This document shows, piece by piece, positions 4,190-16,713 of a stretch of 37,641 nucleotides of DNA (position 1 is the first letter of the stretch; each line of letters opens with the position of its first letter). The notes below the pieces were generated by a model. The model saw nothing but the letters and a program-made list of their open reading frames with translations, was not told the DNA's origin and did no database searches. Source of the DNA: a virus; IMG/VR virus record IMGVR_UViG_3300042868_006295, positions 1 to 37,641 of that record; one strand, written 5' to 3'. The position numbers and the translations under genes are program-made.

Positions 4190-4218
4190 CGTGACAAAAT
4201 AAATTTTTTTCTGTCACG
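4190..4218. terminator. Probable bidirectional terminator after the tail operon
   Basis: CGTGACA (4190-4196) and TGTCACG (4212-4218) are perfect inverted arms around an A/T-only core ending in seven T. The site lies about 20 bases after the D stop, where the tail transcript should end. The arms match the heptamer of the putative origin modules at 11703-11733 and 11917-11947, which may be chance or shared protein binding. Confidence 0.55.
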
Positions 4219-4505: not shown

Positions 4506-4643
4506 ATGAAAAACCAAACCATCAAACAAACGACGGCAGCAGGAAATATTGTGTGGGCTTTAAGCAAAAGCACGCTGGCTACAAAAACTAAAGTTGGAGC
4601 AGCAAAAGCCACGATCAAAGCAAACTTGAAGTTTTCAAAATAA
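4506..4643 (+). CDS. Small Lys/Thr-rich hypothetical protein, 45 aa
   Basis: A 45-residue frame with an ATG at 4506 in the AACCATG context shared by many genes here, 11 bases after the previous stop. The product is strongly basic and rich in Lys, Thr and Ala (A-T-K-T-K-V-G-A-A-K-A-T-I-K), resembling a small nucleic-acid-binding or histone-tail-like peptide. No family is recognised. The start context and spacing support expression, but a frame this short could be fortuitous. The complementary strand also has a hydrophobic open frame here, which I regard as a shadow. Confidence 0.4.
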   Translation: MKNQTIKQTTAAGNIVWALSKSTLATKTKVGAAKATIKANLKFSK

Positions 4644-4653
4644 TCCGCCACCC

Positions 4654-4680
4654 GGCGCGGGTTCGATCCCCGCGCCAGCC
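4654..4680 (+). other. tRNA 3'-end-like hairpin (T arm plus acceptor strand)
   Basis: GCGGG-TTCGATC-CCCGC (4657-4673) is a canonical tRNA T arm, followed by GCCAGCC (4674-4680) where the 3' acceptor strand would lie. The hairpin extends to 8 bp (4654-4661 with 4669-4676). A partial partner for the acceptor strand, GCTGGC, lies at 4574-4579, but that is 100 bases away and no good anticodon arm lies between. It may be a truncated tRNA, an old attachment-site remnant or just a hairpin. Confidence 0.4.
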
Positions 4681-5267: not shown

Positions 5268-5322
5268 CTTAAAATCCCTTATTCCGAAAGGAGTGTGCGG
5301 GTTCGAGTCCCGCCGCCGGCAC
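5268..5322 (+). other. attP: attP core: 3' half of tRNA-Leu(UAA)
   Basis: The sequence matches a tRNA-Leu from its anticodon loop to its 3' end. The loop is CTTAAAA with anticodon TAA at 5270-5272, and the 3' anticodon strand is TCCCT. A long class II variable arm (TTCCGAAAGGAG) follows, then the T arm GCGGG-TTCGAGT-CCCGC (5297-5313), and finally CGCCGGC plus discriminator A (5314-5321). The 5' anticodon strand is not complementary, so tRNA identity begins at the anticodon loop. That is the usual crossover point of tRNA-targeting tyrosine integrases. Confidence 0.85.
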
Positions 5323-5392
5323 TGGGTGGGAGGGCTTCTTTGGCGCTCTGGGTGCGGGTTGGCGGGGTTTTCTTGTCGCTACTCTGCTCAAC

Positions 5393-5421
5393 TTGTCAAT
5401 ACTTCAAAAAGCGTTTTTACT
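5393..5421 (+). promoter_or_regulatory. Possible integrase promoter
   Basis: TTGTCA (5393-5398), a 17-base spacer and TTTACT (5416-5421) match five and four of six consensus positions. Transcription would start near 5428, directly at the right arm repeats (5430-5459), so integrase binding there could repress its own gene. The boxes were chosen by eye. Confidence 0.4.
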
Positions 5422-5429
5422 TGGTTTTT

Positions 5430-5459
5430 CGGGTAACACGGGTAACAGTTCGGGTAACA
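5430..5459 (+). repeat. Arm-type repeats, right side of attP (3 copies)
   Basis: CGGGTAACA occurs at 5430-5438, 5439-5447 and 5451-5459. The last copy ends on the A of the integrase ATG. The spacing of 9 and 12 bases differs from the perfect 10-base tandem on the left arm. Confidence 0.7.
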
Positions 5460-6484
5460 TGAAAGCCCGATACTTTGTTACTCCACACACGGCACGACCT
5501 GGCACTTGGAAGCTTGAGATTCCTGCGTCGGTGTCGGGGAGCAGGATCAAGCGGTTTTTCCGCACGGAGGCGGAGGCTTGGGCGGCGGGCCCTGCTCTTT
5601 TGGAGGCTTTGCAAAAAACAGGGACGGAAGGACTGAAGGAGAAGGAACAAGCGGGGCTTTCGATGCGTTCGGCGATTCGGGATTATGTTGCGACCAAGGC
5701 CAAATCCTCTGAGGAGCACAAGTCGAAGGTTGAGCGGGTCTGCGGTAAGTTGCTGGAGGCGTTCGACGGGCCGGTGGCGAATGTGACGCCGCTCAAGGCG
5801 GGGAAGTGGTTTGACTCGGTGGAAGGATCACCGACGACACGGGCGGGCTGGCATCGCTACGCGAGCGGTTTTTTTGCGTGGTGCGTCGATATGGAGCTTA
5901 TCGACCGAAATCCGCTGCGGCGGATACGAGCGCCAAAGGCCGAGGCGAAAAGGTCGCTCGTCACAGCCGGGGAAATGGGAACGATCTTGGCCGAGGACAT
6001 GAGCGACGAGCTTCGGGCGTGGTTTCTCCTCGGAGGGTTTGCGGGGCTGCGATCCATCGAGGTGCGGCGGATGCGGTGGGAGGATATTGACGCCGCGAGG
6101 GGAGAGATCGAGGTGCGGCGGGAGGTTTCCAAGCAATCCAGCGGACTGCCAGAGCGTATCGTTGATTTCACCGAGCCGTTGACGCGAAGGGCGGCGTTCT
6201 TTGTGGGCGATAAAAAGAAGGGGCTGATTTTGCCACCAGCCTCTCTGCGCATTTATCAAGAGCGTCAGGCGCTCATCAGGCGCTTGCACAAGGCGGGCAA
6301 GGTGCCGTGGTCGCAGTTTCCAGAAAACGCCCTGCGGCATTCCTTCGCAACCTACCACTTGGGGCGCGGGCAGGATGCTGGGAAAACCGCTCACCAGCTT
6401 GGACACTCAACGACCGCGATGGTAAAAAGGGTCTATGCCGTGCCATCGCGCCGTGCGGATTGGCGGGCGTGGTGGGCCGTTTAA
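5459..6484 (+). CDS. int: Tyrosine-family site-specific integrase
   Basis: A 341-residue tyrosine recombinase that should integrate the phage at tRNA-Leu(UAA), whose 3' half lies 137 bases upstream. A core-binding domain occupies about residues 70-150. Catalytic residues are visible: the first Arg in G-L-R-S-I-E-V-R near residue 200, the L-R-H-S-F-A-T box with Arg near 293, the L-G-H-S motif near 315, and the nucleophile Tyr326 in R-V-Y-A-V. The usual first His of the H-x-x-R box is Asn, a variant also seen in related integrases. I start at ATG 5459: the frame is open upstream from a TTG at 5393, but that stretch reads through the arm-type repeats. It is convergent with the RHH gene. Confidence 0.93.
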   Translation: MKARYFVTPHTARPGTWKLEIPASVSGSRIKRFFRTEAEAWAAGPALLEALQKTGTEGLKEKEQAGLSMRSAIRDYVATKAKSSEEHKSKVERVCGKLLEAFDGPVANVTPLKAGKWFDSVEGSPTTRAGWHRYASGFFAWCVDMELIDRNPLRRIRAPKAEAKRSLVTAGEMGTILAEDMSDELRAWFLLGGFAGLRSIEVRRMRWEDIDAARGEIEVRREVSKQSSGLPERIVDFTEPLTRRAAFFVGDKKKGLILPPASLRIYQERQALIRRLHKAGKVPWSQFPENALRHSFATYHLGRGQDAGKTAHQLGHSTTAMVKRVYAVPSRRADWRAWWAV

Positions 6485-8368: not shown

Positions 8369-9241
8369 ATGACTAACCAAATAATCGTTGCACCGCAACA
8401 AAAACCTTCCGCGCTGGCTGTGATGGCTTCGCGCTGCAATGTGGACCCGGCAAAGCTCCACTCCACCCTTAAAAACACGGTCTTCAAAGGCGCAACTGAT
8501 GACGAGCTTTTGGCTCTGGTCGTGACCGCCAACACCTACGAACTCAACCCGATCTTGAAGGAGCTTTATGCTTTTCCGAAAAAGGGCGGGGGCATCACTC
8601 CGATGGTGGGGGTGGATGGCTGGATCAAAATCGCCAACCGCCAACCGAATTTCGACGGCATGGATGTCGAGGTTTACGGAGACGGCAAAACACCGACTCA
8701 CGCAACGGGGACAATCTACCTCAAAGACCGCAGCCACCCGGTGAAGGTGACTGAGTATTTCGACGAGTGCAAACGCAACACCGACCCGTGGAACCAAATG
8801 CCTCGCCGGATGATTCGCAATAAGGCGATCATTCAAGCGATCCGCTTGGCCTTCGGTGTGAGCGGCATCCATGACGAGGACGAGGCGAGGGACATCAGCG
8901 GCCAAGTGCAAATCGTTTCCGGTGCGAAGCCCGTTTTCCGCCCTCGTGCGGTGGAACCGGAGGACATCGAGGACGACATCCCGATGGGTGAGCCGGTGCA
9001 GGAGGTGCAATCCGTGGAAGAATTGCCAAAGTTTGAGGCGGATACGCCACAACGACAGATTCAAGTGGCGATCACAGATGCAGGCGTTTCTGAGGCGGAT
9101 TTCCTCAAAGCACTGAAAGCAACGGCCCCGCAACTGGTGGGCAAGTCAAAGCTGGTCTCCGAACTCTCGGACGATGCCGCAAATGCCGCGCTCGCAGACC
9201 TCAACGAAATCCTCACAGCTATCGAGGAGGGCGCGAAATGA
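8369..9241 (+). CDS. bet: RecT/Bet-family single-strand annealing recombinase
   Basis: A 290-residue protein of the RecT superfamily, Bet subgroup. It anneals complementary single strands during phage recombination and works with the exonuclease encoded next. The diagnostic segments are E-L-N-P-I-L-K-E-L-Y-A-F-P and G-G-G-I-T-P-M-V-G-V-D-G-W (about residues 60-90), then P-R-R-M-I-R-N-K-A-I-I-Q-A-I-R-L-A-F-G near 145-165. The C-terminal 100 residues are acidic and variable, as in other Bet proteins. The start at 8369 has no Shine-Dalgarno sequence. The stop overlaps the nuclease start by four bases. Confidence 0.93.
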   Translation: MTNQIIVAPQQKPSALAVMASRCNVDPAKLHSTLKNTVFKGATDDELLALVVTANTYELNPILKELYAFPKKGGGITPMVGVDGWIKIANRQPNFDGMDVEVYGDGKTPTHATGTIYLKDRSHPVKVTEYFDECKRNTDPWNQMPRRMIRNKAIIQAIRLAFGVSGIHDEDEARDISGQVQIVSGAKPVFRPRAVEPEDIEDDIPMGEPVQEVQSVEELPKFEADTPQRQIQVAITDAGVSEADFLKALKATAPQLVGKSKLVSELSDDAANAALADLNEILTAIEEGAK

Positions 9242-10047
9242 GCGCCTTCCAAGACGGAGCGGAGGGGGTTTATTTCGACCTTGCGGAGGATACCTACCGC
9301 GCAGCCACAGGCGTCAACATTTCGGCCCTTAAATCGATGGGCAAAAGCCCTGCGCATTACCTCGCGCAACTCACGCAGCCAAAGAGCGAACCGACTCCCG
9401 CCATGGTATTCGGAACGCTTCTCCACCGTGCGGCCTTGGAGCCGCACAGGTTGGAGGGTTCGTTTGCGGTGAAGCCGGACGGAATGACCTTCGTGACCAA
9501 AGAGGGCAAGGCATGGAGGGACGCGCAAACGCTACCGATCATATCAGCAGAGCAAAACGAGGCGCTCAAGGGCGCGGCGGTATCGGTGGCATCGCACCCC
9601 GCAGCGGCGGCGATCCTCGACGGAGCCAAGCGGGAGGTGTCCGTTTTCCGGCGCATCGTTCGGAACAACCCGGAGGGGCTATTGCTCAAGGGCCGTCTGG
9701 ACATAGTAGCCGTGGACTCCCAAGGGGCGACTACCATCGGTGACATCAAGACCACAGAGGACGCATCGCCCGAAGGCTTTGCAAAATCCATCGCGGCTTT
9801 TGGCTACGCTCAACAGGCGGCGTATTACATGGACCTCTTGGAGGCGAGTTTCTTCCTCTTCATCGCGGTGGAAAAGGTCGCGCCTTATGCGGTCGGGGTT
9901 TACTGCCTCGACGCCGAAAGCATCGCCCTCGGACGGGAAAAGAACACCCGGCAGCTTGACCTATTGGAACAATGCCAGGAGTCGGGAATCTGGCCCGCTT
10001 ACTCGCAGGAGATCGAAACCATCACCCTGCCCCGCTGGGCTAAGTAA
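9238..10047 (+). CDS. PD-(D/E)XK exonuclease, RecE/DUF3799-like
   Basis: A 269-residue nuclease that should resect double-stranded ends to give the 3' tails on which the Bet annealase acts. The catalytic layout is visible: His63 in G-T-L-L-H-R-A-A-L, Glu133 in K-R-E-V, Asp155 in G-R-L-D-I-V, and Asp169-Ile-Lys171 in G-D-I-K-T-T. A Tyr/Gln helix, Y-A-Q-Q-A-A-Y-Y, follows near 190-197. Length fits the DUF3799 / exodeoxyribonuclease VIII-like family. It starts in a 4-base overlap with bet after a strong Shine-Dalgarno-like GAGGAGGG, so the pair is translationally coupled. Confidence 0.9.
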   Translation: MSAFQDGAEGVYFDLAEDTYRAATGVNISALKSMGKSPAHYLAQLTQPKSEPTPAMVFGTLLHRAALEPHRLEGSFAVKPDGMTFVTKEGKAWRDAQTLPIISAEQNEALKGAAVSVASHPAAAAILDGAKREVSVFRRIVRNNPEGLLLKGRLDIVAVDSQGATTIGDIKTTEDASPEGFAKSIAAFGYAQQAAYYMDLLEASFFLFIAVEKVAPYAVGVYCLDAESIALGREKNTRQLDLLEQCQESGIWPAYSQEIETITLPRWAK

Positions 10048-10048
10048 T

Positions 10049-10303
10049 ATGGAAGATTACAACGACATCGAGCTTGAAGAGGCCAAGGCGCTCGTGGGTG
10101 ACATCCTCGAAACGCACTGGAGCGGCATCCTCCGGGCGGTCTCGGACAGCGAAGACCAGAACGGCAGCGTGAGCATCGCGGTGAAGCTCGACCACAGCGG
10201 GCCGACTCGAAACCTCAAAGTTCGCCTCTCGTATGCGGTCAAGACCACGGATGAGACCGAGAAGAATGTGAGCAACCCCGCACAGCAGGAGCTTGCCATA
10301 TGA
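10049..10303 (+). CDS. Hypothetical protein of the recombination operon, 84 aa
   Basis: An 84-residue acidic protein starting two bases after the exonuclease stop. The N-terminal helix (L-E-E-A-K-A-L-V-G-D-I-L-E-T-H-W) is followed by two strands, S-V-S-I-A-V-K-L-D-H and N-L-K-V-R-L-S-Y-A-V-K-T-T. Its position between exonuclease and RusA suggests an accessory factor for recombination, such as a small nuclease inhibitor or adaptor, but nothing in the sequence proves it. The C-terminus overlaps the next start in ATGA. Confidence 0.6.
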   Translation: MEDYNDIELEEAKALVGDILETHWSGILRAVSDSEDQNGSVSIAVKLDHSGPTRNLKVRLSYAVKTTDETEKNVSNPAQQELAI

Positions 10304-10632
10304 CGATGCAACTTGAGCTTTTCCGCCCAAAGAAGGGCGTGCCGAAGATAACGCCTGAGCGTGTTGAGGATTTTGTGGAGCGGCTGGCTCGCGCCGGGAC
10401 ATGGGTCTCGGCGCGGGCCTTGGAGGAACCGGACTGCAACGACCGCACGATCCGGGCCTTGGCCAACGCCAGCGGGGGCAGGGTCATTAGCGGCCAGCGA
10501 GGCTACAAGGCGGCATCGTGCGCAGACTGCGAAGAAATCGCCCACGCCGCGAACTGGCTGGAACACCAAGCACGGGAGATGACGCAACGGGCGGCTGAGA
10601 TCCGCCGCGCAGCGATTTACTGCCGAGCATGA
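10300..10632 (+). CDS. Winged-helix-like hypothetical protein, 110 aa
   Basis: A 110-residue basic protein. Residues about 20-70 fit a helix-turn-helix or winged helix: R-V-E-D-F-V-E-R-L-A-R-A as helix 1, A-R-A-L-E-E-P-D-C-N-D-R-T-I-R-A-L-A-N-A as the HTH, and G-G-R-V-I-S-G-Q-R-G-Y-K as the wing. The C-terminus is a helix with C-A-D-C upstream. I know similar small proteins near RusA and replication genes in phages but no assigned function. It sits between two 4-base overlaps in the operon. Confidence 0.6.
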   Translation: MTMQLELFRPKKGVPKITPERVEDFVERLARAGTWVSARALEEPDCNDRTIRALANASGGRVISGQRGYKAASCADCEEIAHAANWLEHQAREMTQRAAEIRRAAIYCRA

Positions 10633-11078
10633 AGGCCATCACCTTCCAAGTCTTTGCCGAGCCGAAAGGCCAACCACGGCCCAAAGCCTTCGCCCGCAAC
10701 ATGGGGGGAGGAAAATTCGCCGCTCGCGTTTACGACCCCGGCACGGCAGAGGCATGGAAAAGTGCCATCGCAGAGGCGGCGACAAAGGCCGGCGCTCAGA
10801 ACCTCATGGCGGATGTCCCGATTAGGGTCTCGCTGTGGTGTCACTTTGCGCGACCAAAATCCCATCTTACGAGCAAAGGCGCTCTCAAACCAACAGCCCC
10901 AGAGTGGAAAACCAGCAAACCGGACGCCGACAACATTTTCAAGGCGGCAACGGACGCCCTCACGCAAATCGGAGTCTGGCGCGACGATGCGCAAATCGTC
11001 TCGGCGCTCATTCACAAAAAATACGCACACGAGCGGTCTGCATCGTGGGCTGAAATCACAATCTCAGAAATGAAATGA
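10629..11078 (+). CDS. rusA: RusA-like Holliday junction resolvase
   Basis: A 149-residue RusA-family endonuclease that cuts four-way junctions formed by phage recombination and replication. The family signature K-P-D-A-D-N-I-F-K-A-A-T-D-A-L lies at residues 97-111. The acidic pair Asp119-Asp120 in V-W-R-D-D-A-Q-I, which binds the metal, is also present. The N-terminal G-x-P-R-P-K motif (residues 14-19) is typical too. It starts in an ATGA overlap and ends in another. Together with Bet, the PD-(D/E)XK nuclease and the SSB-tail-like protein it forms a full recombination module. Confidence 0.92.
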   Translation: MKAITFQVFAEPKGQPRPKAFARNMGGGKFAARVYDPGTAEAWKSAIAEAATKAGAQNLMADVPIRVSLWCHFARPKSHLTSKGALKPTAPEWKTSKPDADNIFKAATDALTQIGVWRDDAQIVSALIHKKYAHERSASWAEITISEMK

Positions 11079-11278
11079 ACGAAATCCTACAAGAAAACAA
11101 ACGGCTTCGGGCCGAGGTCGATCACCTCCTTATCGAAAACATGGAGCTAACGGCAGTCATCCGGGCGCTACGCAAGAACGCCCGCGAGGATGCGGCAAGC
11201 ATTGAGACAGCGAAGCGGGAATTATGGCTCTGGAAGAACGGAAAATACGAAAAGAGCACGGAGGCGGCAAATGATTAA
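11075..11278 (+). CDS. Coiled-coil hypothetical protein, 67 aa
   Basis: A 67-residue protein predicted to be almost entirely helical. Heptad-like spacing of Leu and Ile runs through residues 1-45 (L-Q-E-N-K-R-L-R-A-E-V-D-H-L-L-I-E-N-M-E-L), giving a short coiled coil. A small W-L-W-K-N-G-K-Y segment and an acidic end follow. No family is recognised. It overlaps RusA by four bases and the next gene by eight, so it is translated in the same chain. It may be an adaptor or dimerisation peptide in the replication module. Confidence 0.6.
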   Translation: MNEILQENKRLRAEVDHLLIENMELTAVIRALRKNAREDAASIETAKRELWLWKNGKYEKSTEAAND

Positions 11279-11573
11279 GGCGAGCATCAATGTCACCAAG
11301 ATCGAGAAGGCCGAAATCTATGTCGGGAAGAACGGGAAATATGTCGGGCTGGCATTCTTTGCCAATAAAGGCGGGCCTGACCAGTTTGGAAACGATGGCT
11401 TCGTGACTCAGGAGATTTCCAAGGAACGGCGGGACAATGGCGAGCGCGGCCCGATCATCGGCAATTGGAAGTATCTCAAAAAAGCCAGCGTGCCAGCGGG
11501 GAAACCGCAAGGCCCGGCTGACCGATACCAAGGCCGGACACACGACGACACGGGGGAGGAGATACCGTTTTAA
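11271..11573 (+). CDS. Candidate phage single-strand DNA-binding protein, 100 aa
   Basis: A 100-residue protein with a beta-rich N-terminal half (I-K-A-S-I-N-V-T, A-E-I-Y-V-G, Y-V-G-L-A-F-F-A). A Gly/Pro/Arg-rich linker leads to the end D-D-T-G-E-E-I-P-F. The acidic stretch followed by I-P-F is the classic C-terminal tip of SSB proteins, which recruits replication and recombination partners. A small OB-like domain plus this tail, next to RusA and the replication initiator, suggests a phage SSB or an SSB-tip mimic. No conserved SSB core motif is recognised, so the call is an inference. Confidence 0.55.
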   Translation: MIKASINVTKIEKAEIYVGKNGKYVGLAFFANKGGPDQFGNDGFVTQEISKERRDNGERGPIIGNWKYLKKASVPAGKPQGPADRYQGRTHDDTGEEIPF

Positions 11574-11574
11574 T

Positions 11575-12219
11575 ATGGCCGGTGAATGGATCAAGGTGGA
11601 GTTGCACCTACACGAAAAGCCGGAGGTTTTTCAGATAGCAACGGCCACAGGAATGGACCCCGATACGGTAGTGGGAAGGCTTCTGAAAATATGGGGCTGG
11701 GCGTCACGAAATTGTCACGCTGATGGCGTGACACATATCGCGGCACTCGCGCATTTGAACAAAATTGCAGGAAACGAAAGATTCGCTGAGAGCATGCAAG
11801 AAGCGGGCTGGCTTGAGTTAAAAAACTCGAAAATCATCTTCCCGAACTTTGACAGGCATTGCTCGCAAAGTGCTAAGGAAAGAGGGCTTGCCTCAATGCG
11901 GAAGGCTAAGGAAAGAGTCACGAAAATGTCACGCTCAGACCGTGACAAAAGTGTGACCAGAGTAGAGAAGAGAAGAGAAGATATTACTACAGACCTACCA
12001 ACGCGCGAGGAGCCAGTCGGCGACCTTGAAACGGAAAACGCGGAATGGTTGGAGAACATGCGGCGGAATTTCCCTGACCGCGATGTCGATGGCGAGCTGA
12101 AGACCTTTCAGCGTTACTGCGCCAGCAAAGGAACCGCAGCAAACCAACGGGGCTTTTTCGGATGGCTCAAAAAATCCAGCCCGGCAATCCCCGCTCAAAA
12201 ATCACAATGGAGTTACTGA
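11575..12219 (+). CDS. Phage replisome organizer / replication initiator (lambda O-like role)
   Basis: A 214-residue protein whose N-terminal domain (W-I-K-V-E-L-H-L-H-E-K-P-E-V, then V-V-G-R-L-L-K-I-W-G-W-A-S-R-N) matches the winged-helix domain of phage replisome organizers. Such proteins bind the origin. A charged linker (about residues 100-150) leads to a small C-terminal domain likely to contact the helicase loader. The gene precedes a DnaC-like loader, as O precedes P in lambda. Two modules of GTCACG/CGTGACA sites lie within its coding sequence, so the origin may be inside the gene. The ATG at 11575 follows the previous stop by one base. Confidence 0.8.
   Translation: MAGEWIKVELHLHEKPEVFQIATATGMDPDTVVGRLLKIWGWASRNCHADGVTHIAALAHLNKIAGNERFAESMQEAGWLELKNSKIIFPNFDRHCSQSAKERGLASMRKAKERVTKMSRSDRDKSVTRVEKRREDITTDLPTREEPVGDLETENAEWLENMRRNFPDRDVDGELKTFQRYCASKGTAANQRGFFGWLKKSSPAIPAQKSQWSY
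11703..11733. other. Putative origin module A (three heptamer-type sites)
   Basis: GTCACG starts at 11703, TGTCACG at 11713 and the inverted CGTGACA at 11727. The same three sites with the same 10- and 14-base steps recur 214 bases downstream. Iterons inside the initiator gene are the arrangement seen in lambda. Confidence 0.55.
11917..11947. other. Putative origin module B (three heptamer-type sites)
   Basis: GTCACG at 11917, TGTCACG at 11927 and CGTGACA at 11941 repeat module A with identical spacing. A further GTGTGAC follows at 11951, then a purine-rich stretch (about 11960-11985) that could be an unwinding region. Confidence 0.55.
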
Positions 12220-12944
12220 ACGACATGCAAACGATGACAACACGAGAGTGCGCGGACTGCGCAACGGGGTTTACTCCGCATGATGTGGAGTTCGGCGGAA
12301 GGACGATCTTCACGCAGACACGCTGCGAGGCGTGCCAAGAACGGGCCTGCAAGGCGTCGGAGGATGCCGAGAAGGTCAGGGTAGCGGAGGCGAAGAAAAA
12401 AGCGCGGGAGGATGCCTTTCTGGCGATTTGCCCGCCTCTCTACCGCGACACCGACCCCGAACGAATCCATGCACGCTTCCGCGAGGCGGCTTTCACCTGG
12501 ACATGGAACCCGGTGGGAGTCGGCTTCGTGGGGATGGCTGGCAAGGGGAAAACACGGGCGGCTTATCTGCTGATGAACCGGATGGTGCAAGCAGGCCACC
12601 GATGCGCGGCGATGACCTCGACCACATTCGGGAAAATATGCGTCGATCAATTCGCCGATGACAAAGCACGCAAAGCGCAAGCGGAAAAAGACCTCCGCGC
12701 ATGCTACACGGCAAGCGTGTGGTTTCTCGACGACCTCGGCAAACAACGCATGACCGAGAGGGGAGAAATGGAGCTTTACGCCGTGCTGGAACACCGCACG
12801 GCCAACATGTTGCCGACGATCTGGACGGCCAACGCCAAAAGCGATGTCCTTTGCAAGATGTTCAGCGAAGACAGAGGCGAGCCGATCATGCGGAGGCTCA
12901 TCGAGTTCTCGCGGATTACAGCGGTATGGAGGGACGGGCAATGA
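12207..12944 (+). CDS. DnaC-like helicase loader ATPase
   Basis: A 245-residue AAA+ ATPase of the DnaC/DnaI family, expected to load the host replicative helicase at the phage origin. Cys15/Cys18 and Cys40/Cys43 form a zinc-binding N-terminal module as in DnaI-type loaders. Walker A is G-M-A-G-K-G-K-T (109-116), Walker B V-W-F-L-D-D (171-176), and the sensor 1 region T-I-W-T-A-N. The end R-R-L-I-E-F holds the likely arginine finger. I favour ATG 12207, overlapping the initiator by 13 bases. ATG 12162 is also open but would overlap by 58. Confidence 0.88.
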   Translation: MELLNDMQTMTTRECADCATGFTPHDVEFGGRTIFTQTRCEACQERACKASEDAEKVRVAEAKKKAREDAFLAICPPLYRDTDPERIHARFREAAFTWTWNPVGVGFVGMAGKGKTRAAYLLMNRMVQAGHRCAAMTSTTFGKICVDQFADDKARKAQAEKDLRACYTASVWFLDDLGKQRMTERGEMELYAVLEHRTANMLPTIWTANAKSDVLCKMFSEDRGEPIMRRLIEFSRITAVWRDGQ

Positions 12945-13165
12945 GCGCCACGCCTGAGACGGACGCGCTCTATGCGCAAATGCTGGCCGAAAACCCCGGC
13001 AACTTCATCCACCTTGAGGAGTTTCTGGAACTGGCTTGCCGATTGGAGCAGGAGCGCGACGAGGCGAGGGAGGAACTCGCCCACCTCCGCGCATGCGTCT
13101 TCGATGTTCTGCATTGCGTTAAAACAGGAGCCTTTGAGGAGCTTGAAAAGGCATGGAAGAAATGA
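12941..13165 (+). CDS. Hypothetical coiled-coil protein, 74 aa
   Basis: A 74-residue acidic helical protein. It begins T-P-E-T-D-A-L-Y-A-Q-M-L-A-E, a start I have seen in small phage proteins annotated only as hypothetical. A long charged helix follows (E-F-L-E-L-A-C-R-L-E-Q-E-R-D-E-A-R-E-E-L-A), likely coiled coil. It starts in a 4-base overlap with the helicase loader and overlaps the sigma-like gene by 13 bases, linking replication to late-regulator genes in one transcript. Confidence 0.6.
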   Translation: MSATPETDALYAQMLAENPGNFIHLEEFLELACRLEQERDEAREELAHLRACVFDVLHCVKTGAFEELEKAWKK

Positions 13166-15153: not shown

Positions 15154-16006
15154 AAACTTCGTCGCCATCATTATGACGCACGGGCGACCTGATCGGGTCC
15201 ATACCGCTCGCGCCTTGAAGCGGCAAGGCTACACTGGTCGAGTCATCATCCTGATCGACAACGAAGACAAAAGCCGGGTCGAATATGAAAAGCGGTTTAA
15301 AGGACAGGTGCACGTCTTCGACAAAAAAGGAATCTCAGACACCTTTGATGAGGGCGACAACTTCGGAGACCGGAGGGCCATCGTTTACGCTCGAAACGCA
15401 TGCTTTGAAGTAGCGAAAGAAGTGGGCGCAGAGTGGTTCATCGAGCTGGATGACGATTACCAAGATTTTCGGTATCGAGCGGATGGGAAACTTCAATTTT
15501 GCGATAAAACAAATATCTCAAATCTGGATGGGGTGTTCGATGCGATGGTGGATTTTCTCAAAGTGAGCAAGGCGGCAACTATTGCGATGGCGCAGAACGG
15601 GGATTTCATCGGCGGAAAAAATGGGTCGATGGCGAAGAAGTTAAAACTAAGGCGAAAGGCAATGAACACATTCGTATTTAATACCGCTTGCGATTTTCGG
15701 TTTTTCGGCAGGATCAACGAAGACGTAAATTCCTACACGTGCGCAGGCAGGCGCGGGGTTTTATTTTTGACCGTTCCCAATATCGGAATCTGCCAGAAGC
15801 AAACGCAAGCCAACTCAGGCGGAATGACCGAGCTTTATTTGGAATCTGGCACATACGTTAAATCATTCTACTCCGTCATGTATGCGCCGAGCTGTGTAAA
15901 GGTCGCTGATATGGGTCCGGTTTATCGGAGGATGCACCACCGCATAAAATGGAGAAACGCAGTTCCGTGCATCGTCGGTGAAGAACTCAGAAAGACACGA
16001 CCATGA
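15140..16006 (+). CDS. TET-associated-type DNA base glycosyltransferase (probable)
   Basis: A 288-residue protein with a GT-A-like fold. The start F-V-A-I-I-M-T-H-G-R-P-D-R-V-H-T is followed by V-I-I-L-I-D-N-E-D, Y-A-R-N-A-C-F and E-L-D-D-D-Y-Q-D-F-R. The triple-Asp segment is the expected metal and nucleotide-sugar site. Later come A-Q-N-G-D-F-I-G-G-K-N-G-S, G-R-I-N-E-D-V-N and K-Q-T-Q-A-N-S-G-G-M-T. I recall this pattern from phage proteins called TET-associated glycosyltransferases (TAGT), which decorate oxidised 5-methylcytosine; the family call is from memory. A cytosine methyltransferase lies nearby, but no TET-like oxygenase is visible in the window. Confidence 0.7.
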   Translation: MMKNKNFVAIIMTHGRPDRVHTARALKRQGYTGRVIILIDNEDKSRVEYEKRFKGQVHVFDKKGISDTFDEGDNFGDRRAIVYARNACFEVAKEVGAEWFIELDDDYQDFRYRADGKLQFCDKTNISNLDGVFDAMVDFLKVSKAATIAMAQNGDFIGGKNGSMAKKLKLRRKAMNTFVFNTACDFRFFGRINEDVNSYTCAGRRGVLFLTVPNIGICQKQTQANSGGMTELYLESGTYVKSFYSVMYAPSCVKVADMGPVYRRMHHRIKWRNAVPCIVGEELRKTRP

Positions 16007-16713
16007 AAACCGAAGAGCCAGCAAAAAACTTAGCGCAAAAAATTCGTGATGCTGAATTTAAAAACATCCTGCAAAAGCTGAAGGATGGAAAAACCCTAAC
16101 GGCGCGAGAGTCAAAACTTGCGTATGAACTTGCGGAAAGAAACGGAGAAGCTGAAGAAAGCGAAGGGCGATATTCCAACGCTGGAGTTGATGAGGTCGCA
16201 GAGCTGTTCGGAGTCACCCCGGCAAGAGTCCATCAACTCGTTGCCGATGCCGTTGTAATACGGACAAGTCGCGGAGCGTATGACCTCTGGCAATCGGCGC
16301 ACAATTACATTCGTTTTCTGCGAACTCGTAAAGCAAATCAATGGGAGAACAATGAATCCGGCGACTACGAGGTGCAACGAACCAGAGTTTACAAAGCCCG
16401 CGCCGAAATCCTCGAAGCGCAATCGATGGCGATGCGGGGAGAACTCCATGATGGCGCTTGCATTGCCGAGGTGATGGGTGAGGGGCTGGCCAACATCCGG
16501 GCAAAGCTCTTGGCAATCCCAACCACGGCAGGCCCTCGCGTGGCAGACGAGACAGACCCAAACAAATGCGCGGCCCTCATCGAGACCCTACTGCATGAGG
16601 CGATGGCGGAATGCTCAAAATACAACGGACGGGAGATTCTGAACCGCTATCTCAAACGGAGCGAGGCGAAGCCGGAAGAGTCTGAAGAGGCCGGCGAAGG
16701 TTGGGAGACATGA
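16003..16713 (+). CDS. terS: Terminase small subunit (Nu1-like)
   Basis: A 236-residue DNA-packaging recognition protein. A winged helix-turn-helix (V-D-E-V-A-E-L-F-G-V-T-P-A-R-V-H-Q-L-V, about residues 62-80) would bind the packaging start site. A Y-x-x-x-R-A-E-I-L-E-A-Q segment near 125-140 begins the helical oligomerisation part. A-N-I-R-A-K-L-L-A-I-P near 165 is typical of phage Nu1-like small terminases. It is separated from the large subunit by the methyltransferase gene, an unusual insertion. It starts in an ATGA overlap with the glycosyltransferase gene and ends in one with the methyltransferase gene. Confidence 0.82.
   Translation: MKTEEPAKNLAQKIRDAEFKNILQKLKDGKTLTARESKLAYELAERNGEAEESEGRYSNAGVDEVAELFGVTPARVHQLVADAVVIRTSRGAYDLWQSAHNYIRFLRTRKANQWENNESGDYEVQRTRVYKARAEILEAQSMAMRGELHDGACIAEVMGEGLANIRAKLLAIPTTAGPRVADETDPNKCAALIETLLHEAMAECSKYNGREILNRYLKRSEAKPEESEEAGEGWET

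Follow-up and report, generated by a model that had tools for sequence, protein, structure and literature searches.

A candidate replication origin of paired inverted heptamers and an AGAGA tract inside a phage initiator gene

Described systems and the setting of the initiator gene

Origins that lie inside initiator genes are already known as a kind. In lambda and the Stx phages, inverted-repeat iterons are located within the O initiator gene and a weak region lies alongside them (PMC7466680). The Rep protein of plasmid pSK41 binds four boxes located centrally in rep through its N-terminal domain, and the segment coded by the ori serves as a linker (PMC5703833). The oriV of the repABC plasmid p42d is contained in repC, and silent mutations in its A+T-rich stretch abolish its function (PMC3155836). 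In the PLE satellite of V. cholerae, a RepA_N domain covaries with the origin, and experiments have exchanged the two as one module with the C-terminal part kept (PMC8263062). The Rac prophage has an active origin, oriJ (PMC3945230). The position of oriJ within Rac was not found in the available parts of PMC3945230 or PMC11014345; in the latter, oriJ appears only through citation of a paper on oriJ plasmids.

The locus described here is carried by the IMG/VR virus record IMGVR_UViG_3300042868_006295, whose whole 37,641-base stretch was analysed and is referred to as the window (Table 1). In a profile search the product of the 11575-12219 gene matched phrog_2509 (replication initiation protein) over residues 1-172 with an E value of 1e-43, and the gene that follows it also gave NCBIfam DnaC/DnaI-like matches, below cut-off. 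The order of initiator and then DnaC-like loader is that of lambda, and the phrog_2509 and phrog_50 assignments fit the proposal, made in a sequence-only reading of this DNA, that the initiator gene is the positional equivalent of lambda O. The window protein had no Pfam match; PF17948 (DnaT) matched 4 of 54 members of the initiator family (best 2.6e-12), the window protein not among them. A PDB sequence search with the initiator returned nothing, and its predicted model (pLDDT 74.2, pTM 0.47) had no Foldseek match in the PDB at E≤0.001. VIA structure matches of this middling model were all at Z < 5, with RepA_N/DnaD winged-helix entries at Z 3.9-4.5 amid many other winged-helix entries, which supports a winged helix as the predicted N-terminal fold in general terms only. 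The nearest relatives in named genomes are Verrucomicrobia MAGs (L162, 70%; L163, 57%), and the virus is one of bacteria, probably of Verrucomicrobia.

Table 1. Positions of the genes, domains, sites and tract in the window
Feature	Position	Strand	Basis or remark
Replication initiator gene, 214 aa, carries the sites	11575..12219	+	phrog_2509 profile match
Initiator winged-helix domain, N-terminal	about residues 1-95		predicted model
Initiator helical domain, C-terminal	about residues 151-201		predicted model
DnaC-like helicase loader gene, partner of the initiator	12162..12944	+	phrog_50, E 4.6e-20
GTCACG, doubtful site, Ala-Ser-Arg codons	11703..11708	+	constant in 23/23 TGTTACG-class loci
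Module A site TGTCACG	11713..11719	+	offset and class-specific base same in relatives
Module A inverted site CGTGACA	11727..11733	-	relatives
Module B site 1 GTCACG	11917..11922	+	relatives
Module B site 2 TGTCACG	11927..11933	+	relatives
Module B site 3 CGTGACA	11941..11947	-	relatives
Module B site 4 TGTGACC	11952..11958	-	conserved last site before the tract in relatives
AGAGA-pentamer purine tract	11959..11981	+	A/G except T at 11963; conserved in relatives

Two other parts of the window were noted in passing. The gene directly upstream of the initiator (11190-11573) gave only phrog_24909, of unknown function, in the profile search, and its product ends in DTGEEIPF, which may resemble the acidic tip of single-strand binding proteins. 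Two stretches (4640-4680 and 5280-5325) that lie upstream of the integrase gene (5393-6484) look like tRNA 3' ends and are possible attachment sites; ARAGORN found no whole tRNA.

The layout of the locus shares with lambda the placement of inverted-repeat iterons inside the initiator gene beside a weak region (PMC7466680), a helicase-loader gene (P in lambda) next to the initiator, and a purine run after the sites, which in lambda comprises 18 purine-only bases after iteron 4. The lambda motif is different, however, and consists of four 18-base iterons in one cluster as opposed to two heptamer modules; its purine run is A-rich and lacks the AGAGA pentamer, and the comparison is one of layout. 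With pSK41-type RepA_N rep/ori the locus has in common sites placed centrally in the initiator gene (PMC5703833), and the initiator model gave a weak fold match to the RepA_N structures 4pql, 5kbj and 4pta (VIA Z < 5); pSK41, in contrast, is a staphylococcal plasmid and not a phage, and no match came from the PDB search by sequence.

Sites, modules and the purine tract

According to the sequence-only reading, GTCACG, TGTCACG and CGTGACA occur as two modules with the same steps, at 11703/11713/11727 and 11917/11927/11941, and all six are present as described. The 31-mers that span them (11703-11733 and 11917-11947, 214 bases apart) are identical at 26 of 31 positions; across 300 synonymous-codon shuffles of the initiator gene the best 31-mer pair averaged 19.5 identities and never exceeded 22, so that none reached 26. 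Two three-site clusters are present in the gene, compared with a mean of 0.006 over 5,000 such shuffles, 2 of which attained two. The window contains 10 copies of TGTCACG where 3.98 would be expected, and 1 of 100 shuffles attained 10. Modules A and B are read in different frames, and protein repetition therefore does not explain them, as had been argued. The division into three sites per module fared less well than its coordinates. GTCACG at 11703 (offset 128 from the gene start) falls in codons for a conserved Ala-Ser-Arg and is constant in all 23 loci of the TGTTACG class (L044-L047, L059-L064, L066-L078); since it stays GTCACG where the other sites of these relatives have changed class, it is probably coding sequence only. 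Conversely, we take the reverse TGTGACC that precedes the tract, and that the three-site division lacked, to be a member of the module B set.

The same heptamer forms the arms of a palindrome after the tail gene (CGTGACA-15-TGTCACG, 4190-4218). The sequence-only reading had tied it to the origin modules; its arms are there, and the tie was dropped. The palindrome is a facultative element found behind the same gene in 6 of 23 readable relatives (27 examined: carriers L345, L350, L357, L358, L359 and L362), with TGTCACA as its right arm in 4 of the 6. It is lacking from L361, on the contig of L084, whose initiator is the closest relative (100% identical by tblastn), and no covariation with initiator class was shown, and we rejected it as a second origin or operator. 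As RNA it has a folding z of -1.56 and was not called a terminator.

A search of viral contigs yielded 80 loci, the 77 closest of which (L003-L079) include two that end within the gene. In most of these 77, sites lie at offsets of about 138/152/161 (module A) and about 343-390 (module B) from the gene start, and the heptamer is TGTCACG, TGTAACG or TGTTACG, with GGTAACG in two. Initiator homologues were also found at 36 loci in bacterial genomes and in 46 phage records, from which 15 regions were examined; they include Rac ydaU of E. coli, epsilon15, SPN1S and Xanthomonas phage CP2. Similar in-gene inverted heptamers occur in phages or prophages of Verrucomicrobia, Planctomycetes and Proteobacteria, and when 7-mers were searched de novo against a synonymous-shuffle null, many homologues showed in-gene repeats (L081, L164, L166 and L183 are among those without significant repeats). 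The Pseudomonas/epsilon15 group uses the word GTCCGC, and its module A sits at 54-78. Plasmid minimal replicons bearing the initiator were looked for and the idea was abandoned: two family members matched 19 and 3 plasmid records, N-terminal-domain matches were all in records of 41-66 kb, and the sole small one (4.6 kb, Klebsiella) matched just the C-terminal part.

For a held-out test, 68 representatives (<93% identity) were drawn from 135 genes, and the exact inverted arm was learned from module B in 58 of them (10 had none). The same arm then occurred 122 times in bases 1-300 of these 58 genes, compared with a codon-shuffle mean of 31.0 and a maximum of 49 in 1,000 shuffles; taken singly, 39 of the 58 had at least two copies and 35 reached p≤0.05. 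By synonymous-codon shuffles, then, repeated in-gene sites exceed coding expectation. Module A is missing or degenerate in some relatives that have module B (L080-L082, L174, L194, L195), which indicates that it is not essential everywhere. One MAG contig carries two initiator-like genes about 5.4 kb apart (L162:10001-10453 and 15387-16103), both with GTAACG-class sites, the second also with a long AGAGA tract.

The purine stretch that had been noticed after module B is real and is conserved in relatives, where its distance from that module is fixed, and it is the window's only match to AGAGAAGAGAAGA at up to 1 mismatch. A regular expression for an AGAGA-like A/G run found it in 56 of the 68 representatives (none in 12), nearly always directly after the last reverse site, whether GTNACC, GCGGACC or GTTAGCT. 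Its DNA is the same in two reading frames (44 and 12 representatives), and AGA makes up 104 of 105 Arg codons inside the tract, compared with 72 of 897 in the rest of these genes. In an unselected set, identity was 0.89 at a lag of 5 bases and 0.61 at a lag of 3, a period that assigns the repeat to the DNA and not to the codons. In many genes taken singly the length of the run did not reach significance by itself, since the protein has an abundance of Glu, Lys and Arg in this part anyway. Representatives aligned for a stability profile (98 of 127 alignable, partly selected by pattern) had an AT content of 0.61 at the tract (0 to +39) versus a background of 0.444, and a stability of -1.21 versus -1.49 kcal/mol per step, which makes the tract the least stable stretch of the region and places a region of low stability beside the repeats. 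We regard the tract as the likely melting or loading element.

A reverse search, in which a 19-base DNA pattern of last site plus tract was run on viral contigs, returned at least 120 stretches, compared with 13 for the pattern read backwards. The pattern shares an open frame with the N-terminal domain in 110 of 117 loci. Of the rest, 2 lay behind a frameshift in a family gene, 2 started inside a cut family gene, and 3 were outside initiator genes (L246, L267, L311); none of the 13 reversed-pattern control loci had an N-terminal-domain match. The three exceptions (oriented positions 1259 in L246, 2515 in L311 and 3309 in L267) combine iteron-like sites with an AGAGA tract, and no initiator was found in the stretch examined. 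L246 and L311 carry more sites about 250 bases upstream, and one that spans the stop codon of another gene.

Homologous genes of described phages and prophages have the same anatomy. In Rac ydaU, GCGTTAC is found at 148/160/172 and 367/379/402 and a purine tract is present, but the site class is another and the tract is of AGAGGA type; a further GCGTTACA directly upstream of the ydaU start codon (L198:1208-1215) is a possible extra site. The epsilon15 initiator has GTCCGCA at 54/65 and 333/344, together with additional GCGGAC sites and an AGAGA tract; this GTCCGC class differs from the window in that module A lies about 80 bases further upstream.

Concerted change of site class and exchange of domain and sites

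The base that defines the site class varies among phages and, within a phage, is the same in both modules, whichever strand or reading frame the sites are in; this is the mark expected of sites bound by one protein. We quantified this in 231 genes, including those from the reverse search, which gave 127 representatives below 90% identity: two or more GTNACG sites are present in module B of 100 of them, and 87 have two in each module. With the offset-128 GTCACG left out, the majority base at position 4 was the same in modules A and B in 84 of these 87 genes (permuted mean 48.0, maximum 64 of 10,000), the discordant ones being L163, L242 and L281. A tree of the N-terminal domain from which site-coded columns had been removed (118 rows and 79 columns, with many unresolved forks) requires at least 16 changes of site class, and agreement between modules thus does not reflect a single inherited state. 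Concordance between pairs of sites inside module B was weaker than that between modules (466 of 670 versus 0.450 expected), being blurred by CGTTACG, which is readable on both strands; our argument relies on the comparison between modules.

Natural exchanges of the sites were found as well. Identity between the window and L087 is 92.7% over 8501-11639 and 94.5% over 11959-12946, while the 319 bases between (11640-11958), which comprise the rest of the domain and both modules, have no match in L087. L088 gives much the same block, its match stopping at 11631 and restarting at 11969. The swapped block carries GGTAACG-class sites in L007/L008, which lie on the same contigs as L087/L088, and its right edge coincides with the start of the purine tract. 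From these alignments, the DNA-binding domain and both modules were exchanged as one block, and the tract and C-terminal domain were kept. The exchange recalls PLE, where DNA-binding domain and origin are likewise exchanged together, although the PLE origin lies in a non-coding region and has iterons of about 30 bases (PMC8263062).

In the Verrucomicrobia MAG initiator L163 (346-798), module A has TGTCACG and module B GTTACG. Its left part is 97-100% like L040 and its right part 97-100% like L067, with the junction between the modules; it looks like a recombinant of two types, and may be a functional gene or an assembly error. Within the local clade, the A, C and T classes have V, K and M, respectively, at residue 110, with C in two lineages; residues 108 and 113 also separate the classes, and all three lie in a helix (97-118) whose type in L163 is that of its own module B. 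The lineages are too few for a claim that these are specificity residues, and we set that idea aside.

Probable origin function and its alternatives

We consider it highly probable that these elements form an iteron replication origin embedded in its own initiator gene, with the tract adjoining and the N-terminal domain as reader of the sites. The sites, their concerted change, the block exchange and the conserved tract are directly visible in the sequences compared, and the last three support the candidate origin that the sequence-only reading had placed inside this gene. We infer that the domain reads the sites, that replication starts here, in what way the strands open and what part module A plays. 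In the scheme we favor, the winged-helix N-terminal domain of the 11575-12219 product would bind the inverted heptamers of modules A and B, subunits assembled on module B, beside the fixed AGAGA tract, would help to open the tract or retain a single strand of it, and the C-terminal domain would bring in the DnaC-like loader and with it the host helicase. The sites lie within the sequence that codes for the domain reading them, so a single recombination could replace reader and sites together and preserve their match. By analogy, the scheme is most likely that of lambda O, in which sites are bound, an adjoining weak stretch is opened, and loader and helicase are recruited.

In the principal alternative the sites are operators inside the gene, used by the initiator or some other phage protein to repress its own transcription, and replication starts elsewhere. 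Autoregulation is common among plasmid initiators, paired inverted heptamers resemble operator half-sites, and concerted change would be expected for any protein that binds the sites. Nor does GC skew turn here: the skew test that had been suggested as a check shows no sign change at 11.7-12.0 kb, whereas there is one near 5 kb and another near 18 kb. Most genes are on one strand, and we take the skew neither as confirming the origin nor as refuting it. Operators alone, however, would leave unexplained why 56 of 68 representatives have an AGAGA tract directly against their last site, in two reading frames, as well as the loss of stability at the tract, and the sites are 130-380 bases within the gene and not at its start. 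We regard this alternative as unlikely, and an operator role could exist in addition to the origin. It is very improbable that the sites serve a host or other phage protein (in segregation, packaging or recombination) and that the initiator gene carries them by chance; the initiator is a putative reader, but the sites were swapped with its N-terminal domain in a background otherwise more than 92% identical, and, with the two frameshifted and the two cut genes included, 114 of 117 loci with the 19-base pattern lead to that domain.

RNA hairpins in the initiator mRNA that control translation or stability would fit the ability of each inverted pair to form a stem whose arms stay complementary through class changes. 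Pairing, on the other hand, requires neither a base common to A and B nor that the direct copies change along with it, yet the two modules agree in 84 of 87 genes, and three pattern matches fall outside initiator genes; we give this reading an extremely small probability. Chance or repetition at the protein level draws on a linker rich in Val-Thr, Ser-Arg, Arg-Asp and Glu/Lys/Arg, and on tract lengths that do not stand out gene by gene; it is refuted by the synonymous-codon shuffles, the different reading frames and the concerted class changes, and its likelihood is practically nil.

A more specific extension of the origin reading is that the initiator reads class-specific heptamers and then assembles on a near-universal AGAGA strand, one subunit per pentamer, as a widespread phage counterpart of the DnaA-trio, with oriJ located in Rac ydaU. 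We put this forward tentatively, as a proposal with somewhat less than an even chance of being right. The pentamers of the DnaA-trio and of RctB ori2, whose repeats are also 5 bases long, share with the tract a short tandem unit adjoining the nearest double-strand site (PMC10797057); they differ in that the initiators and sequences are others, and a single-strand role of the pentamer here is conjectural. Were the proposal true, a double-strand code would drift freely next to a single-strand code that is fixed, and specificity would switch as one block written in the reader's own gene.

The finding is sound and larger than first stated. In the open-access literature searched we found no description of the origin of this initiator family or of an AGAGA tract in a phage origin, a weak absence, with subscription papers mostly outside that scope. 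Within the literature searched, class-switching paired modules with a fixed AGAGA tract across this initiator family were found described nowhere. If the origin reading is right, inverted heptamers with an abutting AGAGA tract in an initiator gene would predict origins from sequence in many uncharacterised phages and prophages, including prophages of Akkermansia and Pseudomonas and the Rac prophage of E. coli. The TGTCACG, TGTAACG, TGTTACG, GGTAACG and GTCCGC classes form a natural series of matched readers and sites which, together with the natural swaps, offers a way to learn how an initiator changes specificity with its function kept, and the AGAGA tract is proposed as a defined strand-opening element that is open to synonymous mutation.
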